Assembly (NCBI RefSeq): GCF_900086985.1
Contig: NZ_LT593974.1
Span: 248,001-312,000, forward strand
Direction: 5' to 3'
Source: Halomonas sp. HL-93
GTDB lineage: Bacteria > Pseudomonadota > Gammaproteobacteria > Pseudomonadales > Halomonadaceae
Length of the DNA: 64,000 nucleotides
Both the position numbers and the translations under genes were made by a program. The notes beneath the pieces were generated by a model. The model was given only the letters and a program-made list of their open reading frames with translations, was not told the origin of the DNA and did no database searches. This document shows, piece after piece, positions 6,580 through 33,420 of the stretch. Each line of letters opens with the position of its first letter. Position 1 is the first letter of the stretch.

Positions 6580-7101
6580 TTACGGGTAGTAAGAAGGTGT
6601 TGACTGGAGAGATGAAAAACCAATTATCATGATAGAGGTAAAGATGATTGTGATGAGCACTATGCCTACTTTAACATTATCGCTGGGTGCAGGAGGCTGT
6701 TGTCCGTAGCTATTGTCACCTTTCGTTCCAGGGGCAAACAAGAGAACTAACATTAATATAATATTGGCAATAGGAAAAAAGGCTGCCAAGACCCACCAGC
6801 CAGTGGCATCAAGATCATTTAGACGCCTAATGGGAATAATGAAGTTCATCACCAGGGCGACTCCGCCTATTAAGAACGTTATAAAGGTCATTAATATGGT
6901 GATGCCGTCGCGATGAAGTATCAGACCAGTGCTGATGGTGAGTAGAATTGCCAAGGCGGGCAGTAAGTTAATGAGGTTGAAAAACAGCAAAAAGTGCAGT
7001 CGCCCTATTCTGCCGCTACCTGCGAACAATTTTGGGGTAGTTTCTTTTTCTGAGCTAACCTCTTCCTGTGAAGAAGTGTTTTCGAGAGTTGACTCGTTCA
7101 T
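6580..7101 (-). CDS. DUF805 family membrane protein
   Basis: A 173-residue inner-membrane protein of unknown function. An N-terminal ~25 acidic and polar residues precede GRIGRLHFLLFFNLINLLPALAIL, followed by further helices and the DUF805 signature IRRLNDLDATGWWVLAAFFPIANIILMLVLLFAPGTKGDNSYG. Unlike the shortest DUF805 proteins it has one more hydrophobic segment at the C-terminus (about residues 143-162). The gene and its flanks are visibly richer in A and T than the surrounding catabolic genes, which may mean separate acquisition. It converges on the RutE-like gene and has no obvious partner. Confidence 0.75.
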   Translation of the reverse strand: MNESTLENTSSQEEVSSEKETTPKLFAGSGRIGRLHFLLFFNLINLLPALAILLTISTGLILHRDGITILMTFITFLIGGVALVMNFIIPIRRLNDLDATGWWVLAAFFPIANIILMLVLLFAPGTKGDNSYGQQPPAPSDNVKVGIVLITIIFTSIMIIGFSSLQSTPSYYP

Positions 7102-7578
7102 TTCAGGTTCTCTTGATTTCTAAAATCGTGTGTGCCCCGTCGCCTTCAGTTAAACCCGTAACGTATAGCGAAGGCATTATTGTGCGGACCACCCGTGGCC
7201 GCTACTTAAAGCCAGTTCTTTGCTTTTTCTTTATTTCCTAAAGAGCCGATGGCGCTAGCAGTTTAGTCTTTGATGCGTTCTAGGCTGCTAACGTTGTTAA
7301 ATGCACTGATAGGAAGTGTTTATAAATTCTTAGGGTGGCTGCGAAAAAGCGAAAGCTACCATACGGAAAAAATACAGATTAGGGAACGCCTAACGTTAAA
7401 GAGACAGAAAACTCGTACGCAATGTAAGAAATATCTTACATATTTAGGAGTGATGTAGATAAATGCATGGTTTATTTTTTCGTGATAGAACAGCGCTAGA
7501 CGCTACTATGTGCAGTGACTTAAGTACGTAACAGGTTATGCCGTTATAGTGTGTGTTTTTTTAGAAACGGAGAAGCCG
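7102..7578. other. AT-rich intergenic stretch without a convincing gene
   Basis: Between the DUF805 gene and the nitroreductase. A 62-codon open frame at 7270-7458 (plus) has no clear ribosome-binding site, no recognisable domain and overlaps a 20-bp palindrome, so I do not call it as a gene. The only structured element I see is that palindrome (listed separately). Confidence 0.5.
7422..7441. promoter_or_regulatory. 20-bp palindrome, candidate operator upstream of the nitroreductase
   Basis: ATGTAAGAAATATCTTACAT: perfect 8-bp arms (7422-7429 and 7434-7441) around AATA. The symmetry and length resemble TetR- or MarR-type operators. It lies 137 bp upstream of the nitroreductase start. No regulator gene is adjacent, so the protein that binds is unknown. 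Confidence 0.45.
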
Positions 7579-24355: not shown

Positions 24356-24370
24356 TGATATGTTATATCA
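24356..24370. promoter_or_regulatory. Candidate Zur box upstream of the DUF1826 gene
   Basis: TGATATGTTATATCA, with perfect arms TGATAT and ATATCA around GTT. It contains the ATGTTATA half-site of gammaproteobacterial Zur boxes; the second half fits less well. It lies 125 bp before ATG 24495. Support comes mainly from the zinc-related genes that follow. Confidence 0.5.
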
Positions 24371-24494
24371 TAGCTATTTTTTGAGAGTGAATGTTAACTA
24401 TCCGATTTGCTCCCCTTAGCGCTGGCGATTCTTACGCTCGCCGCTTCACAAGCTAATACCAGTTATTTTCTTAAGAACGTTTCAGGAGTCATTT

Positions 24495-25148
24495 ATGTCT
24501 TCCCTACTGCCCGCCACTCAGTGGACGCTGCCAGACCATGCCGCCGGTGATAATGACATCAGCGTGTTGCCGCGCATCTTTGAAGACGCCATTAACATCG
24601 CGATCTTCCAGCGTCCTCTGCCTGCCGATATCGCCTTCAGCGCCCAGGCTCAGTGCCAAACGGATCGCGCCTGGCAATATAGCTGGCTTGGCCATCCTGA
24701 TGAAGCCTTCTCCGCTGACCTGCTTCGCCACCTGCCCGCCCCGGAGGCGGCAACCCCGCTGGTTGAGGATATGGCGACGATTGCCGAAGCGGTCGCCTTT
24801 CTGTTCGATACCCAAACCGTCGGTATTCGCTTGCGCCTGCTTAATAGTGCCATGTGCCCGCGCTTTCACTGCGATAACCTCCCCGTGCGCATGGTAACTA
24901 CCTATTTCGGCCCGGGCAGTGAATGGCTGCCAGAGTACGCCATTAACCGTGAAGGCCTGGGCGCGCCGCACCCTGACCGGCCCGATATCGCAACCGACAC
25001 CGCCGCCATTCAACGCCTTTCACCGGGTGATATCGCATTAATCAAAGGAAGTGGTTGGGTTGGCTGCGAAGAGCGAGGCCTGGTGCATAGAAGCCCGGCG
25101 TTGGAAAACGGTAGCAAACGGCTGCTGATGAGTATTGATCCTGCTTAG
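24495..25148 (+). CDS. DUF1826 family protein, possible Fe(II)/2-oxoglutarate oxygenase fold
   Basis: A 217-residue soluble protein of the DUF1826 family, often seen beside COG0523 genes in zinc-response loci. The C-terminal half has RFHCDNLPVRMVTTYFGPGSEWL, then SPGDIALIKGSGW, then GLVHRSPALENGSKRLLMSID. Read as a double-stranded beta-helix oxygenase, H125-x-D127, H198 and R209 fit the Fe(II)-binding facial triad and the 2-oxoglutarate-binding Arg about 11 residues later. This assignment is my inference; the family has no function I know of. ATG 24495 follows CAGGAG (24482-24487). It lies upstream of the zinc-island operon and probably has its own Zur-controlled promoter. Confidence 0.75.
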   Translation: MSSLLPATQWTLPDHAAGDNDISVLPRIFEDAINIAIFQRPLPADIAFSAQAQCQTDRAWQYSWLGHPDEAFSADLLRHLPAPEAATPLVEDMATIAEAVAFLFDTQTVGIRLRLLNSAMCPRFHCDNLPVRMVTTYFGPGSEWLPEYAINREGLGAPHPDRPDIATDTAAIQRLSPGDIALIKGSGWVGCEERGLVHRSPALENGSKRLLMSIDPA

Positions 25149-25221
25149 GCATTGCCTGATTAGGGTTGTCCCCCGGTGTCAGGGTAGTTGTCGCCTGTGT
25201 GTTTCATAGGGCTAGCTAAGA

Positions 25222-25244
25222 GTTATGTTATAATGTAACAATAA
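25222..25244. promoter_or_regulatory. Zur box overlapping the -10 element of the cysS operon
   Basis: The core TGTTATAATGTAACA (25226-25240) has perfect TGTTA/TAACA arms and matches the gammaproteobacterial Zur consensus (ATGTTATAnTATAACAT type) at about 17 of 23 positions over 25222-25244. A perfect TATAAT (25229-25234) is buried inside, so binding would block RNA polymerase. It lies 57 bp before the cysS ATG. Confidence 0.75.
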
Positions 25245-25300
25245 AGGTTAAATGGTTTTTATGAATAGCTTGGCTAGCTTATTCCCACCGTGGAGACGAC

Positions 25301-26737
25301 ATGACGGCGCCAATTCGCCTCTATAACACGCTGACGCGCGCTAAAGATCCGCTTCGCACCGAACGCCCCGACCGGGTGACCCTGTATGTCTGCGGCCCTA
25401 CGGTTTACAACTTCGCGCATATCGGCAATGCCCGCCCAGCGGTGGTGTTTGACGTCCTTGCGCGCCTGATGCGCCACGACTACCCAGAGGTGGTCTACGC
25501 GCGCAATTTTACCGATGTGGATGACAAGATTAATGCCGCCGCGGCAGAAGCCGGCGTGCCGATTGGGGTGATCACCGAACGCTATATTGAGGCCTACCAT
25601 CAGGATATGCAGGCGCTGGACGTACTGCCGCCGGATATAGAGCCCCGGGTGACCGCGCATATCCCCGATATTGTTGATCTTATCGAAACGCTAATCACCC
25701 GCGGCCATGCTTATGTGGCCCAGGGACATGTGCTGTTTGATGTGGCTTCTTATCCTGCGTATGGGGCGCTGTCGGGTCGCCGCCCGGAGGATATGCTGGC
25801 CGGCGCCCGGGTCGAAGTCGCCCCTTACAAGCGTAACCCCCTGGACTTCGTGCTGTGGAAACCTTCAACGCCCGAAATGCCTAGCTGGCAGAGCCCCTGG
25901 GGTCGCGGACGCCCCGGCTGGCACGTGGAGTGCACGGCAATGATCGGTCAGCACTTGGGGCATACCCTCGATATTCACGGCGGCGGTCAGGATCTGATCT
26001 TTCCTCACCACGAGAACGAAATTGCCCAGGGCACCTGCGCCCATGGCGCCCTTTACTGCCATACCTGGGTGCACAACAGCTTTATCACCGTTGAAGGGCA
26101 GAAGATGTCCAAGTCCCTCGGCAACGTACTGTTGGTGCGTGATCTGCTCAGTCAGGCGCCCGGCGAAGCGATCCGCTTTGCGCTTCTGGCGACCCACTAT
26201 CACCACCCGCTGGATTGGAATGCCCGGCGGTTGGCCCAGGCACGGCAAACCCTGGCGCGCTGGTACCGCCGCCTAGCCGCGGCCACTGGGGATGAGCAGG
26301 CTGAAGGGGAGCAGAATGAGTGGAAGAGCGTAGCGCCGGATGCCGAGGTGCTGGAAGCGCTGCGGGATGACCTCAATGTGCCCCGTGTTATCAGCCGTCT
26401 GCACGAGCTATCAAGCGCCATTGGCGATGCCGCCAATGAAGAAGATGCCCGGTTAGCCGCCCAACGGCTGCGTGCCTCTGCTGGCCTGGTCGGCTTGTTA
26501 CAGCAACCGGCAGCAAGCGCCTTAAACGCCCTGCGGGAATTACCGGATCAGGCCTCGCCACCAAGGCTGCCCGCCAGCCGGGTGGAGGCGCTGGTGGCAG
26601 AACGCCACCAGGCCCGCCTGCAGCGCGATTTTGCCCAGGCAGATGCCTTGCGCCAGACCCTGGAAGCGGCCGGCGTTGTGATCCACGACACCCCACAGGG
26701 CACCCAGTGGCAGTTCGCCGACGAGGTGGTGGTATGA
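25301..26737 (+). CDS. cysS: Cysteinyl-tRNA synthetase, zinc-island paralogue
   Basis: A 478-residue class I aminoacyl-tRNA synthetase charging tRNA-Cys. Landmarks: CGPTVYN at 31-37, the HIGH-type motif HIGN at 40-43, and KMSKS at 268-272. The active-site zinc ligands of this enzyme are all kept: C31, C211 (WHVEC), H236 and E240 (FPHHENE). HIGNARP is a wording I associate with alphaproteobacterial CysRS, which may point to transfer. ATG 25301 follows GGAG. Its place behind a Zur box and beside other zinc-starvation paralogues suggests a stand-in for the housekeeping CysRS; a housekeeping copy is expected elsewhere but cannot be seen here. Confidence 0.88.
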   Translation: MTAPIRLYNTLTRAKDPLRTERPDRVTLYVCGPTVYNFAHIGNARPAVVFDVLARLMRHDYPEVVYARNFTDVDDKINAAAAEAGVPIGVITERYIEAYHQDMQALDVLPPDIEPRVTAHIPDIVDLIETLITRGHAYVAQGHVLFDVASYPAYGALSGRRPEDMLAGARVEVAPYKRNPLDFVLWKPSTPEMPSWQSPWGRGRPGWHVECTAMIGQHLGHTLDIHGGGQDLIFPHHENEIAQGTCAHGALYCHTWVHNSFITVEGQKMSKSLGNVLLVRDLLSQAPGEAIRFALLATHYHHPLDWNARRLAQARQTLARWYRRLAAATGDEQAEGEQNEWKSVAPDAEVLEALRDDLNVPRVISRLHELSSAIGDAANEEDARLAAQRLRASAGLVGLLQQPAASALNALRELPDQASPPRLPASRVEALVAERHQARLQRDFAQADALRQTLEAAGVVIHDTPQGTQWQFADEVVV

Positions 26738-26752
26738 GCAAGGAGGCGCGTA

Positions 26753-27874
26753 ATGCAACACTATGATGTGATTATCGTTGGGGCTGGCCCGGCCGGGGTA
26801 GGCTTGGCCACCCTGCTGGCAAAACTGCCCGATCTCGACTACACCCTGCTGGAAGGCGGGCGTATCGGTGAGTCGCTGCGCCGCTGGCCCGCACAAACGC
26901 GCTTGATCACCCCCTCTTTCTACAGCAACCCCTTCGGCCTGGCCGATCTCAACGCCGTGGATGCCTGGAGTTCGCCCGCCCTATATTGCGGTGTGGAGCA
27001 CCCCAGCGGCGCCCAGTACGCCGACTACTTAAGCTTTATTGCCCAGCAGCACGCGTTACCTATCCTCGAAGGCTGGCAAGTGCAGCAGGTAGCGCCAGCG
27101 GCCGACGGCGGCTTTATCGTCAGCGGCGAACAGGGCGAGCTGCACACCCGCTTTCTGGTATGGGCCACCGGGGAGTATCAGTTTCCCGAGCTGGCGCCGT
27201 TCCCCGGGGCTAGTTGGTGCCCCCACTATGCCGAGGTGGAAAACTGGGCAGACTTTACCGCCCCCCGCTATACGGTGATCGGCGGCTACGAAAGTGGCGT
27301 CGATGCGGCAGTCAACCTGGTGCAGCTAGGGCGCTCGGTGCGTCTGCTGGTGCGCAAATCCTCCTGGGATCCCAGCAGCCCCCACGATCCCAGCCTGTCG
27401 CTGTCACCCTACACACGCAGTCGCCTGGATGAGGCGGTCAACACTGGGCGGCTGGAGATCGTCTTCGGTGCGGATATTGTCGAGGTCATGGCCAATGCGG
27501 ACAGCGGTTTTAGTGTCCACGCCGCTGATGGCCGCCAGTGGGCCTGCGAGCAGCCCCCCATTCTGGGCACCGGCTTTCTCAGCGGCGGTGGCGCCACCCA
27601 GATCGATGCGCTGTGGGAGTGGGATGCGAAGGGGCAGGTCATGCTCACCGAGCTGGACGAATCCACCTTAACGCCAGGGCTGTTTTTAGTCGGCCCCCAG
27701 GTGCGCCACGACCCACAAATCTACTGCTTTATCTACAAGTTTCGCCAGCGTTTCAGCATGATCGCCACCTGTTTGGCCGAGCGCTTGGACATTGACGCCT
27801 GGGTGCTGGAAGAGGATAACCAGGTATGGGGCGCGTTCGGTAATCAAGAGTGCTGCGAGGATTGCCAATGTTAA
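26753..27874 (+). CDS. FAD/NAD(P)-dependent oxidoreductase with Cys-rich C-terminal tail
   Basis: A 373-residue flavoprotein resembling flavin monooxygenase- or thioredoxin-reductase-like oxidoreductases. The FAD site is DVIIVGAGPAGVGLATLLAKL (residues 4-24); the second dinucleotide site reads YTVIGGYESGVDAAVNLVQLG (about 173-193). The protein ends in QECCEDCQC, four Cys in the last seven residues, a possible metal- or thiol-handling tail. It lies 15 bp after cysS with a strong AAGGAGG and overlaps the permease gene by 7 bp, so it belongs to the zinc-island operon. The substrate is unknown; reduction or oxidation of a metal-binding thiol, or of the permease's cargo, are possibilities. Confidence 0.7.
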   Translation: MQHYDVIIVGAGPAGVGLATLLAKLPDLDYTLLEGGRIGESLRRWPAQTRLITPSFYSNPFGLADLNAVDAWSSPALYCGVEHPSGAQYADYLSFIAQQHALPILEGWQVQQVAPAADGGFIVSGEQGELHTRFLVWATGEYQFPELAPFPGASWCPHYAEVENWADFTAPRYTVIGGYESGVDAAVNLVQLGRSVRLLVRKSSWDPSSPHDPSLSLSPYTRSRLDEAVNTGRLEIVFGADIVEVMANADSGFSVHAADGRQWACEQPPILGTGFLSGGGATQIDALWEWDAKGQVMLTELDESTLTPGLFLVGPQVRHDPQIYCFIYKFRQRFSMIATCLAERLDIDAWVLEEDNQVWGAFGNQECCEDCQC

Positions 27875-28881
27875 CCCTGTCCTCCCGCGACCGCTTACCC
27901 GCTGCCACGCTGACCTCCAGCCTGCTGGTGATCGCTATTATTATCGGCGCGCTACTCGGCCACTTCGCCCCCACCCGTGGGCAGTGGTTGGGCGATAACG
28001 TCGATGCCACGCTGCTTACCATGATTGGTCTGCTGTTCTTCAGCGTGCGTTTAGACGTGCTGGCCCGGCAGGCGAGTAATCTGCGCTTTATGGTTATCGC
28101 CATCACGGCTAACTTCATTGTCGTGCCTTTGATTGGCTATGGGGTGGCGTCGCTGTTTATGTCCGCGCACCCACTGCTGATGGTGGGGCTAGTGATCTAC
28201 TTTATGTCGCCCTGCACCGACTGGTTTCTAGGCTTTACCCGCCTTTCCGGTGGCAATGTCGCCCTCGGCATGGCGCTGATACCGATTAATATGGCGCTAC
28301 AGCTGCTGCTTTACCCGGTCTATTTGCAGTGGTTTACGCCGCATACGGGAACGGTTGATCCCCAGCTAATCGGCACCACCCTGCTGCACTGGTTTTTGCT
28401 GCCCGCGATTGCCGCCCTAACGCTGCACCACACGTTGCGTTTTATGCTTGGCGAGCAGCGTTTTGAGCAGTGCCTAACCTTTGCAGACCGCGCTACCCCC
28501 TGGGTGATTGCCTTGCTGGTGCTGCAGATATTCGCCGGTAATATCGCGGCGATCCTGGCGCACCGCTATGTGTTTGCCTGGCTGTTGCTGTCGGTGTTTG
28601 TGTTTTTTGTGCTGACGTTTGTGCTTAGCGAAGTGATCAGCCGCGGCTGCCGCCTGGCGTACCCCGAGCACGCGCTCCTCACCATGACCATCGCCGCCCG
28701 CAATGCGCCGCTGATGCTGGCGGTGACCATGACGGTACTGCCCGGCCAGCCGCTCATCTATGCCGCTCTGGTGATAGGCATGTTAGTGGAGTTCCCCCAC
28801 TTAACGCTGCTGCGTCGCATCCTGCTGGCGCTCAGGCGTCGCCGGGCTCAAGCAAGCAGCGCCATTGATTCCCCCTCTTGA
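27868..28881 (+). CDS. Acr3/BASS-superfamily permease ('arsenic resistance protein' type)
   Basis: About 337 residues and roughly ten hydrophobic helices, of the bile acid:Na+ symporter/Acr3 superfamily. The segment [37 protein letters not shown] contains the conserved Cys-bearing discontinuous helix expected in Acr3-like carriers. ATG 27868 ([17 protein letters not shown]) has GCGAGG upstream and overlaps the FAD protein by 7 bp. No arsR, arsC or arsH is present, and the neighbours are zinc-starvation genes, so arsenite export is not the likely role. Transport of a metal complex or of a product of the FAD enzyme fits the context better, but is inference. Confidence 0.72.
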
Positions 28882-28897
28882 TAACGAGTTTTACGCG

Positions 28898-30904
28898 ATG
28901 ACCTTGTCCACCTCAGACATGCCCACATTAGAACAGGCAGTCACTGTTACGCTGCCGGATGGCGCCAAACGCCACTTTGACCACCCGGTTAGCGTCGCCC
29001 AGGTGGCGCACGCCATTGGCCCGGGGCTTTCGAAACAGACGCTGGCCGGCAGGCTCGATGGTCGCCTGGTCGATGCCTGCGAGGTGATTGATCACGATGC
29101 CCAGCTGCAGATCATTACCCCCAAAGATGACGAAGGGCTAGCGATTATCCGCCACTCCTGCGCTCACCTGGTCGGTCATGCCGTCAAGCAGCTGTACCCC
29201 AGCGCCATGATGGTGATTGGCCCGGTGATTGACGATGGTTTCTACTACGATATCGCCTTTGAGCGCCCCTTTACCCCCAGCGACCTCGCCGCCATCGAAG
29301 CGCGCATGCATGAGCTGATCGCCCAGGAGTATGAGGTGGTAAAGCGCATGACCCCGCGGGATGAGGCGGCCGAGCTATTTAAGGCGCGCGGTGAGACCTA
29401 CAAGCAGCGCCTAATCGAAGAGATGCCCGAGGAGGTCACTAGCGTAGGGCTGTATATCCACCAAGAGTATGTGGATATGTGCCGTGGCCCCCACGTGCCC
29501 AATACCCGCTTTCTCAAGGCGTTCAAACTGACCAAGCTGGCCGGTGCCTACTGGCGGGGCGATGCCAACAACGAGCAGCTACAGCGCATCTACGGCACCG
29601 CCTGGGCGGATAAAAAGCAGCTCAAGGCCTATCTGCAGCACCTTGAAGAGGCGGAAAAGCGTGACCACCGACGTTTGGGTCGCGGCCTGGATCTGTTTCA
29701 CTTTCAGGAAGATGCGCCAGGCGCGGTGTTCTGGCACCCACGGGGCTGGGCCGTGTTCCAGGAGTTGATCGCCTATATGCGCTGTCGCCAGCAAGCGGCG
29801 GGCTATGTGGAGGTTAACTCCCCCGATGTGATGGATCGTAGCCTGTGGGAAATCTCCGGCCACTGGCACAACTATCGCGAGCATATGTTCACCACCGAGA
29901 CCGAGGATGGCCGCTCGCTGGCGCTCAAACCGATGAACTGCCCCGGCAGCGTGCTGCTCTACCGCCACGGTTTAAAGAGCTACCGCGACCTGCCCATTCG
30001 CATGGGCGAGTTTGGCAAGGTGCACCGCTACGAGCCCTCCGGCGCGCTCCATGGGTTGCTCCGGGTGCGCCACTTTACCCAGGACGACGCCCATATCTAC
30101 TGCACCCCCGGCCAGATGGATGCCGAGTGCCGGGATGTGGTGGCCCTGGTGCTGGATATCTACCGCCAGTTCGGCTTTGAGGATGTGCGCATCAAGCTCT
30201 CTACCCGGCCGGAAAACCGCATGGGCGACGATGCCAGCTGGGATTTGCTGGAAGGCGCGCTGGAGCAGTCATTGACGGGTATGGGCCTGGCCTATGAGCT
30301 CAACCCCGGTGAAGGGGCTTTCTACGGCCCTAAACTGGAGTTTGTGCTACGCGACGCCATTGGCCGCGACTGGCAGTGCGGAACGCTTCAGGTGGATATG
30401 AACCTGCCCGAGCGTTTTGGCCTTGAGTATGTGGATGAAGATGGCAAGCGCAAGCGCCCCGTGATGCTGCACCGGGCGCTGTTTGGCTCACTTGAGCGCT
30501 TTATTGGCATTCTTATTGAGCACTATGCGGGTAAGCTCCCGGCCTGGCTGGCGCCGGTGCAGGCGGTGGTGCTGTCGATCACCGACGAACATACTGCCTA
30601 TGCCCAGGAGGTGGCGCAGCTCCTCAACGGGGCAGGCGTGCGCACCGAGGTGGATGTGCGCAACGAGAAGATCGGTTACAAAATCCGTGAGCAAACCCTG
30701 CAGCGCATCCCCTTTTTACTGGTGGCGGGCGCCAAGGAGCGTGACGCGGGCAGTATTGCTCTACGTACTCGTGAGGGTGAAGACATGGGCGTACTCCCCA
30801 TTCAGCAAGCGGTAACGTTTCTGTTAGACAAAGTTCAAATGCCGGATGCCCCTGAAAATCGTGCTGCCCAGCAGCGCCTGCTTGAACGGTTGACCGCTGT
30901 TTAG
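28898..30904 (+). CDS. thrS: Threonyl-tRNA synthetase, zinc-island paralogue
   Basis: A 668-residue class II synthetase with TGS domain (about 10-75), editing domain (HLVGH, H90/H94, and C195/H199 in DMCRGPH), catalytic core and C-terminal anticodon-binding domain (from about 560). The active-site zinc ligands C348 (NCPG), H399 (DDAHIYC) and H525 (MLHRA) are all present, so the enzyme should still bind zinc and proof-read serine. ATG 28898 is taken; an in-frame TTG at 28865 and ATG at 28919 are alternatives. A rpsL/infC-type neighbourhood of the housekeeping thrS (infC-rpmI-rplT) is absent, which supports a second copy. Confidence 0.9.
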
Positions 30905-30935
30905 CATGACAGGCGACATCGCTAATTTTTATTTT

Positions 30936-30947
30936 ACGTTATAACGT
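30936..30947. promoter_or_regulatory. Candidate Zur-like palindrome upstream of dksA
   Basis: ACGTTATAACGT, a perfect 12-bp palindrome 24 bp before the dksA ATG, containing the GTTATA core of Zur half-sites in both directions. Spacing differs from the full consensus. It could also simply overlap a -10 element. Confidence 0.4.
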
Positions 30948-30970
30948 TTACTTCAGGGCGAGATTAATCT

Positions 30971-31435
30971 ATGCACGACCAAGGCATAAAAGCCAAAGAA
31001 CAGCGTGTTGCTGCTGATAAAACGTGGGCAGAGAAGCTACTGGCGATGCCTGCCAGTGACTATATGAACGCCGAGCAGTTGGCATTTTTCCGCCAGCGGC
31101 TGCTCGACGAGCGTGCCGAAATAGAGGCGCACTTAAAGGAGATGAAGGACGTTATCGCCTCCCACGAGCGCGATAGCGACGAATCGGATCAAGCTTCTTT
31201 TGAGGAGGAACTGCGCCTGGCCTTGAGGCAAGCGGATCGCGAGAGCCGCTTGCTCAACAACATTGAGTCAGCCTTAAAGCGCATTGAGAACGGCGACTAT
31301 GGCTACTGCGAAGAGACCGGCGAGCCTATTGGCCTAGCCCGGCTAATGTTTAGGCCCACTGCGAAGCTCTGTATTGAGGCGAAAGAGCGCCAGGAACAAC
31401 AGGAACACCATTATCGCAAAGCACGCTGGGAGTAG
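30971..31435 (+). CDS. dksA2: DksA-family transcription factor lacking two zinc ligands (DksA2 type)
   Basis: A 154-residue RNA polymerase-binding factor of the stringent response. The coiled coil (about 35-105) has the acidic tip D70-x-x-D73-x-A75 needed for action with ppGpp. The globular zinc-finger region reads YCEETG...LCIEAK: C113, T116, C134, A137. Two of the four zinc Cys are thus replaced by Thr and Ala, the same pattern known from Pseudomonas aeruginosa DksA2, which works without zinc. This is the clearest single sign that the island serves zinc starvation. It lies 66 bp after thrS with a palindrome between, and 6 bp before the COG0523 gene. Confidence 0.88.
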   Translation: MHDQGIKAKEQRVAADKTWAEKLLAMPASDYMNAEQLAFFRQRLLDERAEIEAHLKEMKDVIASHERDSDESDQASFEEELRLALRQADRESRLLNNIESALKRIENGDYGYCEETGEPIGLARLMFRPTAKLCIEAKERQEQQEHHYRKARWE

Positions 31436-31441
31436 GGTGTT

Positions 31442-32533
31442 ATGCAGGAACCGTCATTAATACCGGTCAACCTACTGACCGGCTTCTTAGGCAGCGGCAA
31501 AACCACACTGCTCAATCGCTGGGTTCACCAAACCTCCATGCACAACACCCTGGTGGTGATCAATGAGTTTGGTGCCATCGGGTTGGATCATCAACTGATC
31601 ACCCAAAGCGATGAGCAGGCGGTGATCGAAATGAGTAGCGGCTGCTTATGCTGCACGCTACGTGGGGATTTGAGCCGAACCCTGCAACAAGCGCTTGAAG
31701 ACCTGGAAGCACAAGATAAACCCTTGCCTGCTCGGGTGGTGATTGAGACCACAGGGCTGGCGGAGCCTACGTCTTTGCTGCAACTGTTGATGACGGATCA
31801 CTGGCTGGCGCACCGCTTTAAGCTGGATAGCGTGGTGTGCTGCGTGGATGCGGCCAATGGTATGGCAACGCTTAACGCCCACCAGGAGTCGCAACAGCAA
31901 ATCGCGGTAGCCGATAAGTTATTAATCACCAAAACCGACCTGGCGAGCGAAGACGGCGTTTCCCAGTTAGCAAATCAGCTGGCTAAGTTGAACCCCGCAG
32001 CGGAGCAATGGCAGGTGATCAACGGCGAACTCTCGGCAGATTTGCTGGTGGGGGCGGGGGTGCATGGTGGCGACACCAAGGGGTTCCAGGTGGATCGATG
32101 GCTCAAAGCCGATAGCTACGCCTTGCATCAGGCCGATACTCGTCCAGCCGCTTTTTCTGCTCCGCTGAAGAATTCGCCATTGAGCCCACATAAGCCCGAT
32201 GTGCTTTCCCATCACGGCGCTAACATTAATGCCTTCTGTTTTAGTGTGAGCGAGCTTATTGAGCCTGCGGCCCTGGAGGGGTGGCTAGACATTTTGATGT
32301 CGTTAATGGGCGACAAAATGCTGCGCATTAAAGCTATTGTGCACCTCACTGATCGGGATACACCGCTAGCGCTACATGGCGTGCAGCATATTTTTCATCC
32401 GCCTGCGCCCCTGCCAGCCAACAGTGTGAGCGACCGGGTATCACGCTTTGTGTTTATTACCCAAAACGTTGCGCCCGAAAGCGTGGCCGAGCTCTACAAC
32501 TTTTTCCACTCCTCCCAAGAGGTAGCCCAATGA
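31442..32533 (+). CDS. COG0523/CobW-family GTPase, putative zinc metallochaperone (ZigA type)
   Basis: A 363-residue G3E GTPase. Walker A is GFLGSGKTT (14-22), the family metal site is GCLCC (67-71), and the nucleotide specificity motif reads ITKTD. A CobW C-terminal domain follows (HGVQHIFHPP, FVFITQNV). Zur-regulated members are thought to deliver zinc to client proteins under shortage. The long His-rich linker of some relatives is absent here. Position between dksA2 and folE2, overlapping folE2 by 4 bp, strongly supports a zinc role over a cobalamin role. Confidence 0.88.
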   Translation: MQEPSLIPVNLLTGFLGSGKTTLLNRWVHQTSMHNTLVVINEFGAIGLDHQLITQSDEQAVIEMSSGCLCCTLRGDLSRTLQQALEDLEAQDKPLPARVVIETTGLAEPTSLLQLLMTDHWLAHRFKLDSVVCCVDAANGMATLNAHQESQQQIAVADKLLITKTDLASEDGVSQLANQLAKLNPAAEQWQVINGELSADLLVGAGVHGGDTKGFQVDRWLKADSYALHQADTRPAAFSAPLKNSPLSPHKPDVLSHHGANINAFCFSVSELIEPAALEGWLDILMSLMGDKMLRIKAIVHLTDRDTPLALHGVQHIFHPPAPLPANSVSDRVSRFVFITQNVAPESVAELYNFFHSSQEVAQ

Positions 32534-33420
32534 CCGTTTTAACCTTACCCGATGTCGCAAGCCAAACCACCCGCTTAACGAGCACACTGACGTGGGTAGG
32601 GATGGAGGGCATTGCGCTACCTATCCGGCTAGGGGTGAGCGGTGTAAACGCCAAAATTGCGGCAGGGGTTAGCCTTGAGGATCCCGAGGCGCGGGGTATT
32701 CATATGTCGCGTCTCTACTTGGCGTTGCAGCCTTTAGAGGAAGCGCCGCTGACCCTCCCGGTGATAAAAGAGGTGTTGAAAACCTTTATCGCGAGTCAAG
32801 AAGGGCTCTCCCAGCACGCCTATCTTAGCGTCGAGGGTGAGCTGCTACTCAAGCGTGAAGCGCTGATCAGCCCATTGGCTGGGTGGAAAAGCTACCCTTT
32901 TACACTGCGCTGCCAGCTAACCCCTGAGGGTTTTCAAGCCGAGCTGGGGCTGACAGTGGGGTATTCGTCTACCTGCCCCTGCTCAGCGGCGTTGGCGCGG
33001 CAATTGGTTCAACAAGCCTTTGAGGAGGACTTTTCGGAAATACCGTTAACCCAGTCGGCGGTATCGGCATGGCTGGGGAGTGAAGAGGGTATATTAGCCA
33101 CGCCCCACAGCCAGCGCAGCAGCGTCGAATGCCGTTTGCGCCTAGCTGAGGCGGATAACGATGAGCTGCCCATTGAGGGGTTGATCGACCATATCGAAAA
33201 GGCGCTAGGTACTGCACTGCAAACCGCCGTGAAGCGCATTGACGAGCAGGCGTTTGCCCTCGCCAACGGGCAAAACCTGATGTTCTGCGAAGACGCGGCA
33301 AGGCGTGTAGATAAGGCCCTGCGGCAATCACCGGGGGTCACCGGGTTTCAGCTCAAGGTGGTGCATGCTGAAAGCCTGCACGCCCACAATGCAGTGGCGT
33401 GCAGCGAGTGGAATTGGTGA
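32530..33420 (+). CDS. folE2: GTP cyclohydrolase IB (FolE2)
   Basis: A 296-residue enzyme making 7,8-dihydroneopterin triphosphate for folate and related cofactors. It is the type IB enzyme, which can use metals other than zinc, so cells use it when the zinc-dependent FolE fails. Landmarks: ARGIHMSRLY (55-64) and the metal-site Cys in GYSSTCPCSAAL (C149). Start ATG 32530 overlaps the GTPase stop (ATGA), so the two are co-translated. Last gene of the zinc island; a 211-bp gap without features follows. Confidence 0.93.
   Translation: MTVLTLPDVASQTTRLTSTLTWVGMEGIALPIRLGVSGVNAKIAAGVSLEDPEARGIHMSRLYLALQPLEEAPLTLPVIKEVLKTFIASQEGLSQHAYLSVEGELLLKREALISPLAGWKSYPFTLRCQLTPEGFQAELGLTVGYSSTCPCSAALARQLVQQAFEEDFSEIPLTQSAVSAWLGSEEGILATPHSQRSSVECRLRLAEADNDELPIEGLIDHIEKALGTALQTAVKRIDEQAFALANGQNLMFCEDAARRVDKALRQSPGVTGFQLKVVHAESLHAHNAVACSEWNW

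Follow-up and report, generated by a model that had tools for sequence, protein, structure and literature searches.

Why should a cluster of zinc-starvation genes harbour a flavoenzyme and a permease in its midst? The locus that raises this question lies in a 64,000-nucleotide stretch of Halomonas sp. HL-93 DNA (contig NZ_LT593974.1, positions 248,001 to 312,000; hereafter the window), in a genome of 4.14 Mb that forms a single contig. It comprises eight plus-strand genes between positions 24495 and 33420 of the window, namely DUF1826, cysS2, a gene for a flavin adenine dinucleotide (FAD) enzyme, an Acr3/BASS-like permease gene, thrS2, dksA2, a COG0523 GTPase gene and folE2, as identified by open reading frame calls and Pfam/NCBIfam matches. 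Genes and coordinates agree with those of an original prediction, which had linked six of them to zinc shortage and left the FAD enzyme and the permease without a role. Since zinc is not redox-active, a strongly induced flavoenzyme at zinc loci calls for explanation. We found that the FAD enzyme family recurs at zinc-starvation loci with interchangeable transporters, and the FAD-permease pair thus looks like a real Zur-linked module rather than a chance insertion. On comparative grounds, the pair probably helps the cell to acquire or release zinc when it is scarce.

The FAD enzyme family and its genomic neighborhoods

The FAD enzyme matched PDB entry 3d1c over residues 1-373, which amounts to full-length similarity. 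When plasmids, phage records and genomes were searched, relatives were recovered in Pseudomonadota, Bacillota, Cyanobacteria and haloarchaea, the sources being plasmids of Klebsiella and other enterobacteria, Acaryochloris, Paracoccus, Paenibacillus, staphylococci, Enterococcus faecalis and haloarchaea. From these we assembled a comparison set of 19 proteins, one to three per lineage. Near-copies were left out (loci L003-L006 and L008, the second E. faecalis locus L023, and 498 of the 499 Klebsiella plasmid records), as were the matches on E. coli, Enterobacter and Pantoea plasmids and those at L009-L016, which were of low identity or short. A gene of this family on a Haloarcula halophila plasmid (L069:5900-7060), unannotated there, contains an in-frame stop and was also dropped.

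Of the 19 FAD genes, 18 had a Zur-like box or a gene of zinc starvation in their vicinity. Neighboring COG0523 genes were confirmed with Pfam in S. aureus, S. epidermidis, S. arlettae, Paenibacillus, Paracoccus, Halocatena and Haloferax, and ZigA is annotated near the FAD gene in Klebsiella and on two Acaryochloris plasmids. At L073 the nearby zinc genes are cysS and part of folE2, and at L079 hisI with a box, while the link is made by a box alone in E. faecalis, L024, L021 (15/18 matches) and L080 (16/18). All five Bacillota loci that were scored had a Bacillus-type box with 18 to 20 of 20 matches ahead of the genes, a score of 18 being reached in none of 200 simulations per locus. The folE2 gene in the zinc island of L073 (3171-4129) is split over two frames and is therefore either broken or mis-sequenced.

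The family is further marked by its cysteines. The motif C-[FY]-[IV]-YKFR-x-RF was present in all 19 proteins. The C-terminal tail CC-x(2-4)-C-x-C was complete in 17 and its second and third cysteines were found in every member when counted by eye; an automated tail pattern with too short a gap gave only 12 (relaxed) or 11 (strict).

Exchangeable transporter partners

We then considered which genes adjoin the FAD gene or lie one small gene away from it. A Gate protein was the partner at 8 of the 19 loci, an Acr3-like permease at 5 and another transporter at 2, with none adjacent at the other 4. The Gate partners of Klebsiella, Acaryochloris (pREC2), Paenibacillus and haloarchaea carry a FeoB-type GTPase domain, which those of three staphylococci lack; the Halocatena assignment comes from its annotation and the Gate protein alignment. 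Five cysteines are invariant across all nine aligned Gate proteins, and the eight aligned permeases share a single invariant cysteine, in the sequence PCTDW.

In a tree of the FAD proteins the Acr3-like pairing appeared in two separate places, two changes of partner being forced by well-supported branches, and the clade of the window protein was sister to the Klebsiella protein (99/98), whose partner is FeoB-like. A profile of the permease alone, run against 369 genomes of the class, led to two further genomes, in both of which the permease gene lies beside an FAD family gene and downstream of a Zur-like box (18/18 or 16/18). Closer to the window, the FAD and permease genes were adjacent in all six Halomonas/Vreelandella loci fetched (L003-L008). 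The pair, which the original prediction had described as locked in the middle of the island, is linked to zinc-starvation loci far outside this genome, but it is not obligate, since the permease gene also occurs in zinc islands without an adjacent FAD gene and the FAD gene with other transporters or none.

At an E. faecalis locus (L019:3744-4814 and 1112-2176) a gene of the ammonium-transporter family precedes the FAD gene, and a YibE/F gene is divergent across a Zur box with 19/20 matches. An AspA/AstE-type deacylase gene identified with Pfam follows the FAD-permease genes at L024 (468-1370) and lies close to the FAD gene in the L073 zinc island (6683-7573); it may encode another Zur-linked zinc-enzyme paralog.

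An induced relative in Staphylococcus aureus

The S. aureus FAD protein encoded at L022 equals 3d1c without a difference over 368 residues, and for this reason we took the 283-kb phage record that carries it to be S. aureus host DNA. All three matches in the phage collection lay in records marked 'UNVERIFIED'; the phage-labelled records OR844989.1 and OR846637.1 (L022 and L023) apparently represent bacterial host DNA, as the E. faecalis record presumably does, and no relative was confirmed in the viral collection. In a PADLOC search for anti-phage defence systems, neither the FAD enzyme nor the permease gave a match.

At L022 a Bacillus-type box with 20/20 matches is followed by the FAD, Gate protein and COG0523 genes. 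Gene order and labels suggest that this is SA2370-SA2369-SA2368 (NWMN_2483-2481), which in Table 1 of an RNA sequencing study from 2017 are induced 152-, 83- and 43-fold by calprotectin and are labelled FAD-dependent oxidoreductase, hypothetical and COG0523 GTPase, respectively (PMC5480029). Calprotectin is not zinc-specific, and that study also notes an iron-limitation response to it (PMC5480029). The apparent staphylococcal operon resembles the Halomonas island in having an FAD protein that belongs to the same family and ends in a similar tail, an overlapping transporter gene, a COG0523 gene downstream of the two and a Zur box in front. It differs in that the Gate protein serving as its transporter lacks a GTPase domain and in that it contains neither cysS nor thrS.

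Organization and predicted regulation of the island

The features of the island are collected in Table 1. The 15-bp gap between cysS2 and the FAD gene is correct, as is the 7-bp overlap of the FAD and permease genes when ATG 27868 is taken as the permease start. The joint expression that had been predicted from this arrangement is to be expected, and a Zur-like box heads cysS2-FAD-permease-thrS2. For thrS2, ATG 28898 is most likely the start.

Table 1. Genes, Zur-like boxes and conserved cysteine codons of the island (window positions)
Feature	Position	Strand	Evidence or remark
Zur-like box ahead of DUF1826	24357..24374	+	15/18 to palindromic consensus; among 12 genome core sites
DUF1826 protein	24495..25148	+	PF08856 3.5e-49
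Zur-like box ahead of cysS2-FAD-permease-thrS2	25222..25239	+	16/18 to consensus
cysS2, second cysteinyl-tRNA synthetase	25301..26737	+	TIGR00435 485.8 bits, cut-off 340
FAD enzyme, Pyr_redox_3 fold, 3d1c family	26753..27874	+	PF13738 1.7e-87; 3d1c E 1.7e-63
Codon of Cys325 in C-x-IYKFR-x-RF	27725..27727	+	motif in 19/19 family members
Codons of C-terminal cysteine tail CCEDCQC	27851..27871	+	tail alignment of 19 members
Acr3/BASS-like permease	27868..28881	+	SBF 5.4e-14; frame open from GTG 27850
Codon of permease Cys122 (PCTDW)	28213..28215	+	invariant in 8/8 aligned permeases
thrS2, second threonyl-tRNA synthetase	28898..30904	+	TIGR00418 703 bits, cut-off 383.65; frame open from TTG 28865
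Weak Zur-like palindrome ahead of dksA2-COG0523-folE2	30936..30947	+	perfect 12-bp palindrome; <13/18 in window scan
dksA2	30971..31435	+	TIGR02420 122.2 bits, cut-off 115.5
COG0523 GTPase	31442..32533	+	PF02492 (cobW) 3.6e-46
folE2, GTP cyclohydrolase	32530..33420	+	NF010200 304 bits, cut-off 215

Boxes were scored against an 18-letter palindromic consensus that we take to be of Zur type. The two main island boxes score 15/18 and 16/18, whereas no site of 15/18 or better arose when the 64-kb window was simulated 60 times with a Markov model. A looser 13-bp pattern, allowing up to 3 mismatches, gave 62 matches in the window against a mean of 71.66 in shuffled sequences, i.e., no excess, and the sites therefore stand out only under the longer consensus. 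All 18 letters of the box at 25222-25239 recur identically upstream of cysS2 at L003, L004 and L008, and sites with 13/18 matches lie upstream of dksA2 at L003, L004 and L006. Together with the gene content, these boxes support the original assignment as a zinc-starvation island, which is likely to be Zur-repressed.

Across the whole genome, 12 sites matched the 14-bp core with no more than 2 mismatches, compared with 1 for the reversed pattern. Two of the 12 lie in the island and eight others were inspected, the remaining two being left out. One site with a perfect core sits between an ABC-3 permease/ATPase gene pair and a znuA gene, another heads a second znu set, and a two-mismatch box (G000:C1:3667331-3667344; local position 3032 of L049) stands ahead of a zinT gene that contains a histidine-rich stretch. 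A one-mismatch box at G000:C1:1645950-1645963 (local position 4951 of L046) is flanked by a gene for a periplasmic binding protein and a chelatase-like gene, and a cobW gene follows downstream, hinting at a link of zinc with cobalt or cobalamin. Four inspected sites adjoin genes without an evident zinc link, among them a relaxase-like gene, so that chance probably accounts for part of the 12. Genes of the FUR family number two in this genome, and we read the second, which adjoins hisI (PRA-CH), as zur.

A conserved gene order in other zinc loci, for which the original prediction had asked that genomes be searched, was found, with variations. Other Halomonas/Vreelandella loci show the island order in modified form. 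At L005 the island runs on without a break into znuA and znu permease genes and has no cysS2 between DUF1826 and the FAD gene, and a hexapeptide-fold, gamma-carbonic-anhydrase-like gene stands between its permease and thrS; L008 has this additional gene as well.

The combination of such genes has precedent. Zur-linked clusters with COG0523, DUF1826, CysRS and ThrRS paralogs, DksA and FolE2 have been described, including one on the Klebsiella plasmid pLVPK (Haas et al. 2009, PMC2770081). The text of that article, as far as available to us, names neither the FAD enzyme nor its transporter. In the Klebsiella cluster analysed here, a FeoB-like protein takes the place of the Acr3-like permease of the island. 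Among the open-licence literature matches listed, we found no work on the function of the FAD enzyme or of the pair, no family-wide link of the flavoprotein with exchangeable transporters across bacteria and archaea and no Acr3-like version.

Proposed function and alternatives

The chemistry that we favour for the pair is a putative metal take-up or release based on thiols and driven by reduced nicotinamide adenine dinucleotide (phosphate) [NAD(P)H]. Use of NAD(P)H is suggested by the two-domain flavoprotein fold, a thiol role by the FAD enzyme tail and the cysteine-bearing transporters, and a zinc hand-over by the COG0523 gene in the same island. Zur would leave its boxes when zinc drops, and both members of the pair would be made alongside the rest of the island. 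The permease might then carry a soft-metal species, or its thiol complex, along a path that includes the conserved cysteine. In the cytosol, the FAD enzyme, fed by NAD(P)H, would keep Cys325 and the CC-x-C-x-C tail, and perhaps the permease cysteine, in the reduced state; alternatively, it might act on the complex that comes in and reduce its sulfur ligand. The tail could serve as a zinc acceptor and pass zinc on, possibly to the COG0523 GTPase of the island, and in other lineages the FeoB-like, cysteine-rich Gate protein would take the permease's part.

Taken as a whole, this proposal of a Zur-controlled pair that moves a soft metal or thiol complex, with the FAD tail handing zinc on, seems to us nearly as likely to be right as wrong. 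Its extension to a widespread zinc-starvation module of bacteria and archaea, in which an NAD(P)H-dependent, cysteine-tailed flavoprotein and an exchangeable transporter (FeoB-like Gate, Acr3-like or perhaps Amt) together achieve a redox-driven gathering or release of zinc, is slightly less probable still. Were the pair to handle zinc or its thiol complexes, it would represent an unrecognised step of the response to zinc starvation, present also in S. aureus and with a solved structure (3d1c). The swap between FeoB-like and Acr3-like partners narrows the possible transported species.

A number of observations weigh against the proposal. FAD locus L072 shows neither a box nor a recognised zinc gene, L021 and L080 count by their boxes alone, and L021 is ambiguous, having siderophore-type neighbors. 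Four of the 19 FAD genes have no recognised adjacent transporter, a 93-residue frame standing at that place at L073, and the gene adjoining FAD belongs to the ammonium-transporter family in E. faecalis and encodes a FecCD siderophore-type permease at L021. Conversely, the permease occurs in zinc islands L055 and L056 without an adjacent FAD gene. The FAD family is also rare, with 2 of 151 genomes in the bacterial family, 2 of 194 and 4 of 390 in the order (overlapping draws with differing thresholds) and 1 of 398, only the genome itself, in the phylum, where few candidates were scored per genome. To judge from the fold, Cys325 would lie near the flavin. Finally, we know of no BASS or Acr3 protein that moves zinc.

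The closest solved structures outside the FAD family are those of the bacillithiol disulfide reductase YpdA/Bdr (PDB 7a76 and 7a7b), a flavoprotein with two dinucleotide domains, although the match is partial; it is because of this relationship that we favour thiol/disulfide chemistry over oxygenation. The FAD enzyme is nonetheless distinct from YpdA/Bdr, scoring 74.8 bits with TIGR04018 (cut-off 339.9). It has Ala14, in 10 of 10 alignment rows, where YpdA has a cysteine in the first glycine motif that we take to be the active one, and it has the C-terminal tail in addition.

An oxygenase role belongs to what we consider the best of the alternatives, though an unlikely one, in which the FAD enzyme makes, tailors or degrades a small metallophore that the permease exports or imports. 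BASS carriers transport organic anions, which would suit this idea. In genome G060 a FecCD permease gene follows the FAD gene at a locus that also contains genes for a TonB receptor and a Suc_Fer-like protein, and the AspA-type deacylase genes of L024 and L073 could be read in the same sense. However, no metallophore synthase was recognised in the loci read, where no systematic search for one was made, and the commonest partner is the FeoB-like Gate protein, a transporter of the metal-ion type. Moreover, the FxGxxxH spacing, presumably the hallmark of class B flavin monooxygenases, is not kept, the window protein having FxG-x5-H and the S. aureus protein no FxG.

It is quite unlikely that the pair imports another divalent metal (iron, cobalt or manganese), or keeps it reduced, for enzymes that tolerate it during zinc shortage. 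FeoB-like partners would suit this role, as would FolE2 in the island, the annotated carbonate dehydratase of the Klebsiella relative and the gamma-carbonic-anhydrase-like gene at L005; in addition, zinc-starved cells are described as able to substitute cobalt (PMC11340326), and cobalt as mitigating zinc starvation (PMC13083405). Against it stand the boxes, which are of Zur type, and the Acr3/BASS permease, an improbable carrier of iron or cobalt.

Distinctly unlikely is that the two genes are independent zinc-sparing genes under shared Zur control, each replacing a zinc-dependent function. Zur islands do gather spare enzymes (PMC2770081), and this reading would accommodate both the permeases without an adjacent FAD gene (L055 and L056) and the 4 of 19 FAD genes without an adjacent transporter. 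It fits poorly with the overlapping or abutting FAD and transporter genes of several lineages, with the involvement of two unrelated transporter types and with the two separate FAD-BASS pairings. We rejected chance neighborhood, as the FAD and permease genes recur in zinc loci obtained from separate searches, and arsenic or mercury detoxification by the pair is unlikely here. No ars or mer family is represented among the eight genes, and scores were far too low both with the acr3 model and with that of the flavin monooxygenase ArsO (NF040505), the FAD enzyme reaching 42.2 bits with the latter (cut-off 425).

The permease shares with the ACR3 arsenite efflux permeases its fold family and a PCT cysteine motif, which we assume to be characteristic of ACR3; it differs from them in its zinc context and in scoring 64.5 bits with TIGR00832 (cut-off 282.8). 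Of two permease relatives of ∼34% identity that were inspected, one lies in a mercury/arsenic cassette and the other next to a CDF-ArsR pair.

Second synthetases, DksA2 and further observations

The duplication of cysS and thrS that the original prediction had noted was borne out, with one other copy of each elsewhere in the genome, 44% identical to cysS2 and 62% identical to thrS2. Aligned with these main copies, both second synthetases retained the residues at the positions that we take to be the zinc ligands of CysRS and ThrRS, and they are therefore extra copies and not zinc-free substitutes, so that the label of spare enzymes does not hold for them in the sense of zinc independence. The description of DksA2 as ligand-poor was accurate: two of what we assume to be the four canonical zinc-finger cysteines remain and two are lost. 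FolE2 is a GTP cyclohydrolase type able to work without zinc.

Within the bacterial family, genomes G060 and G012 have a permease gene flanked by COG0523 and thrS genes; Zur-like boxes are present there, but no FAD gene is adjacent. A FUR-family gene precedes COG0523 in G060 (5.5e-6), its look-alike in G012 having no Pfam match at 1e-5, and in G105 a permease fragment lies near a znuA gene. Genes resembling zinT by eye adjoin znu genes at L005 and L057. No tRNA or Rfam match at the gathering threshold was obtained within the window. The G+C content reaches 63% over positions 26001-28000, which span the end of cysS2, the FAD gene and the start of the permease gene, compared with 55% and 59% in the flanking 2-kb bins, a peak compatible with separate acquisition.

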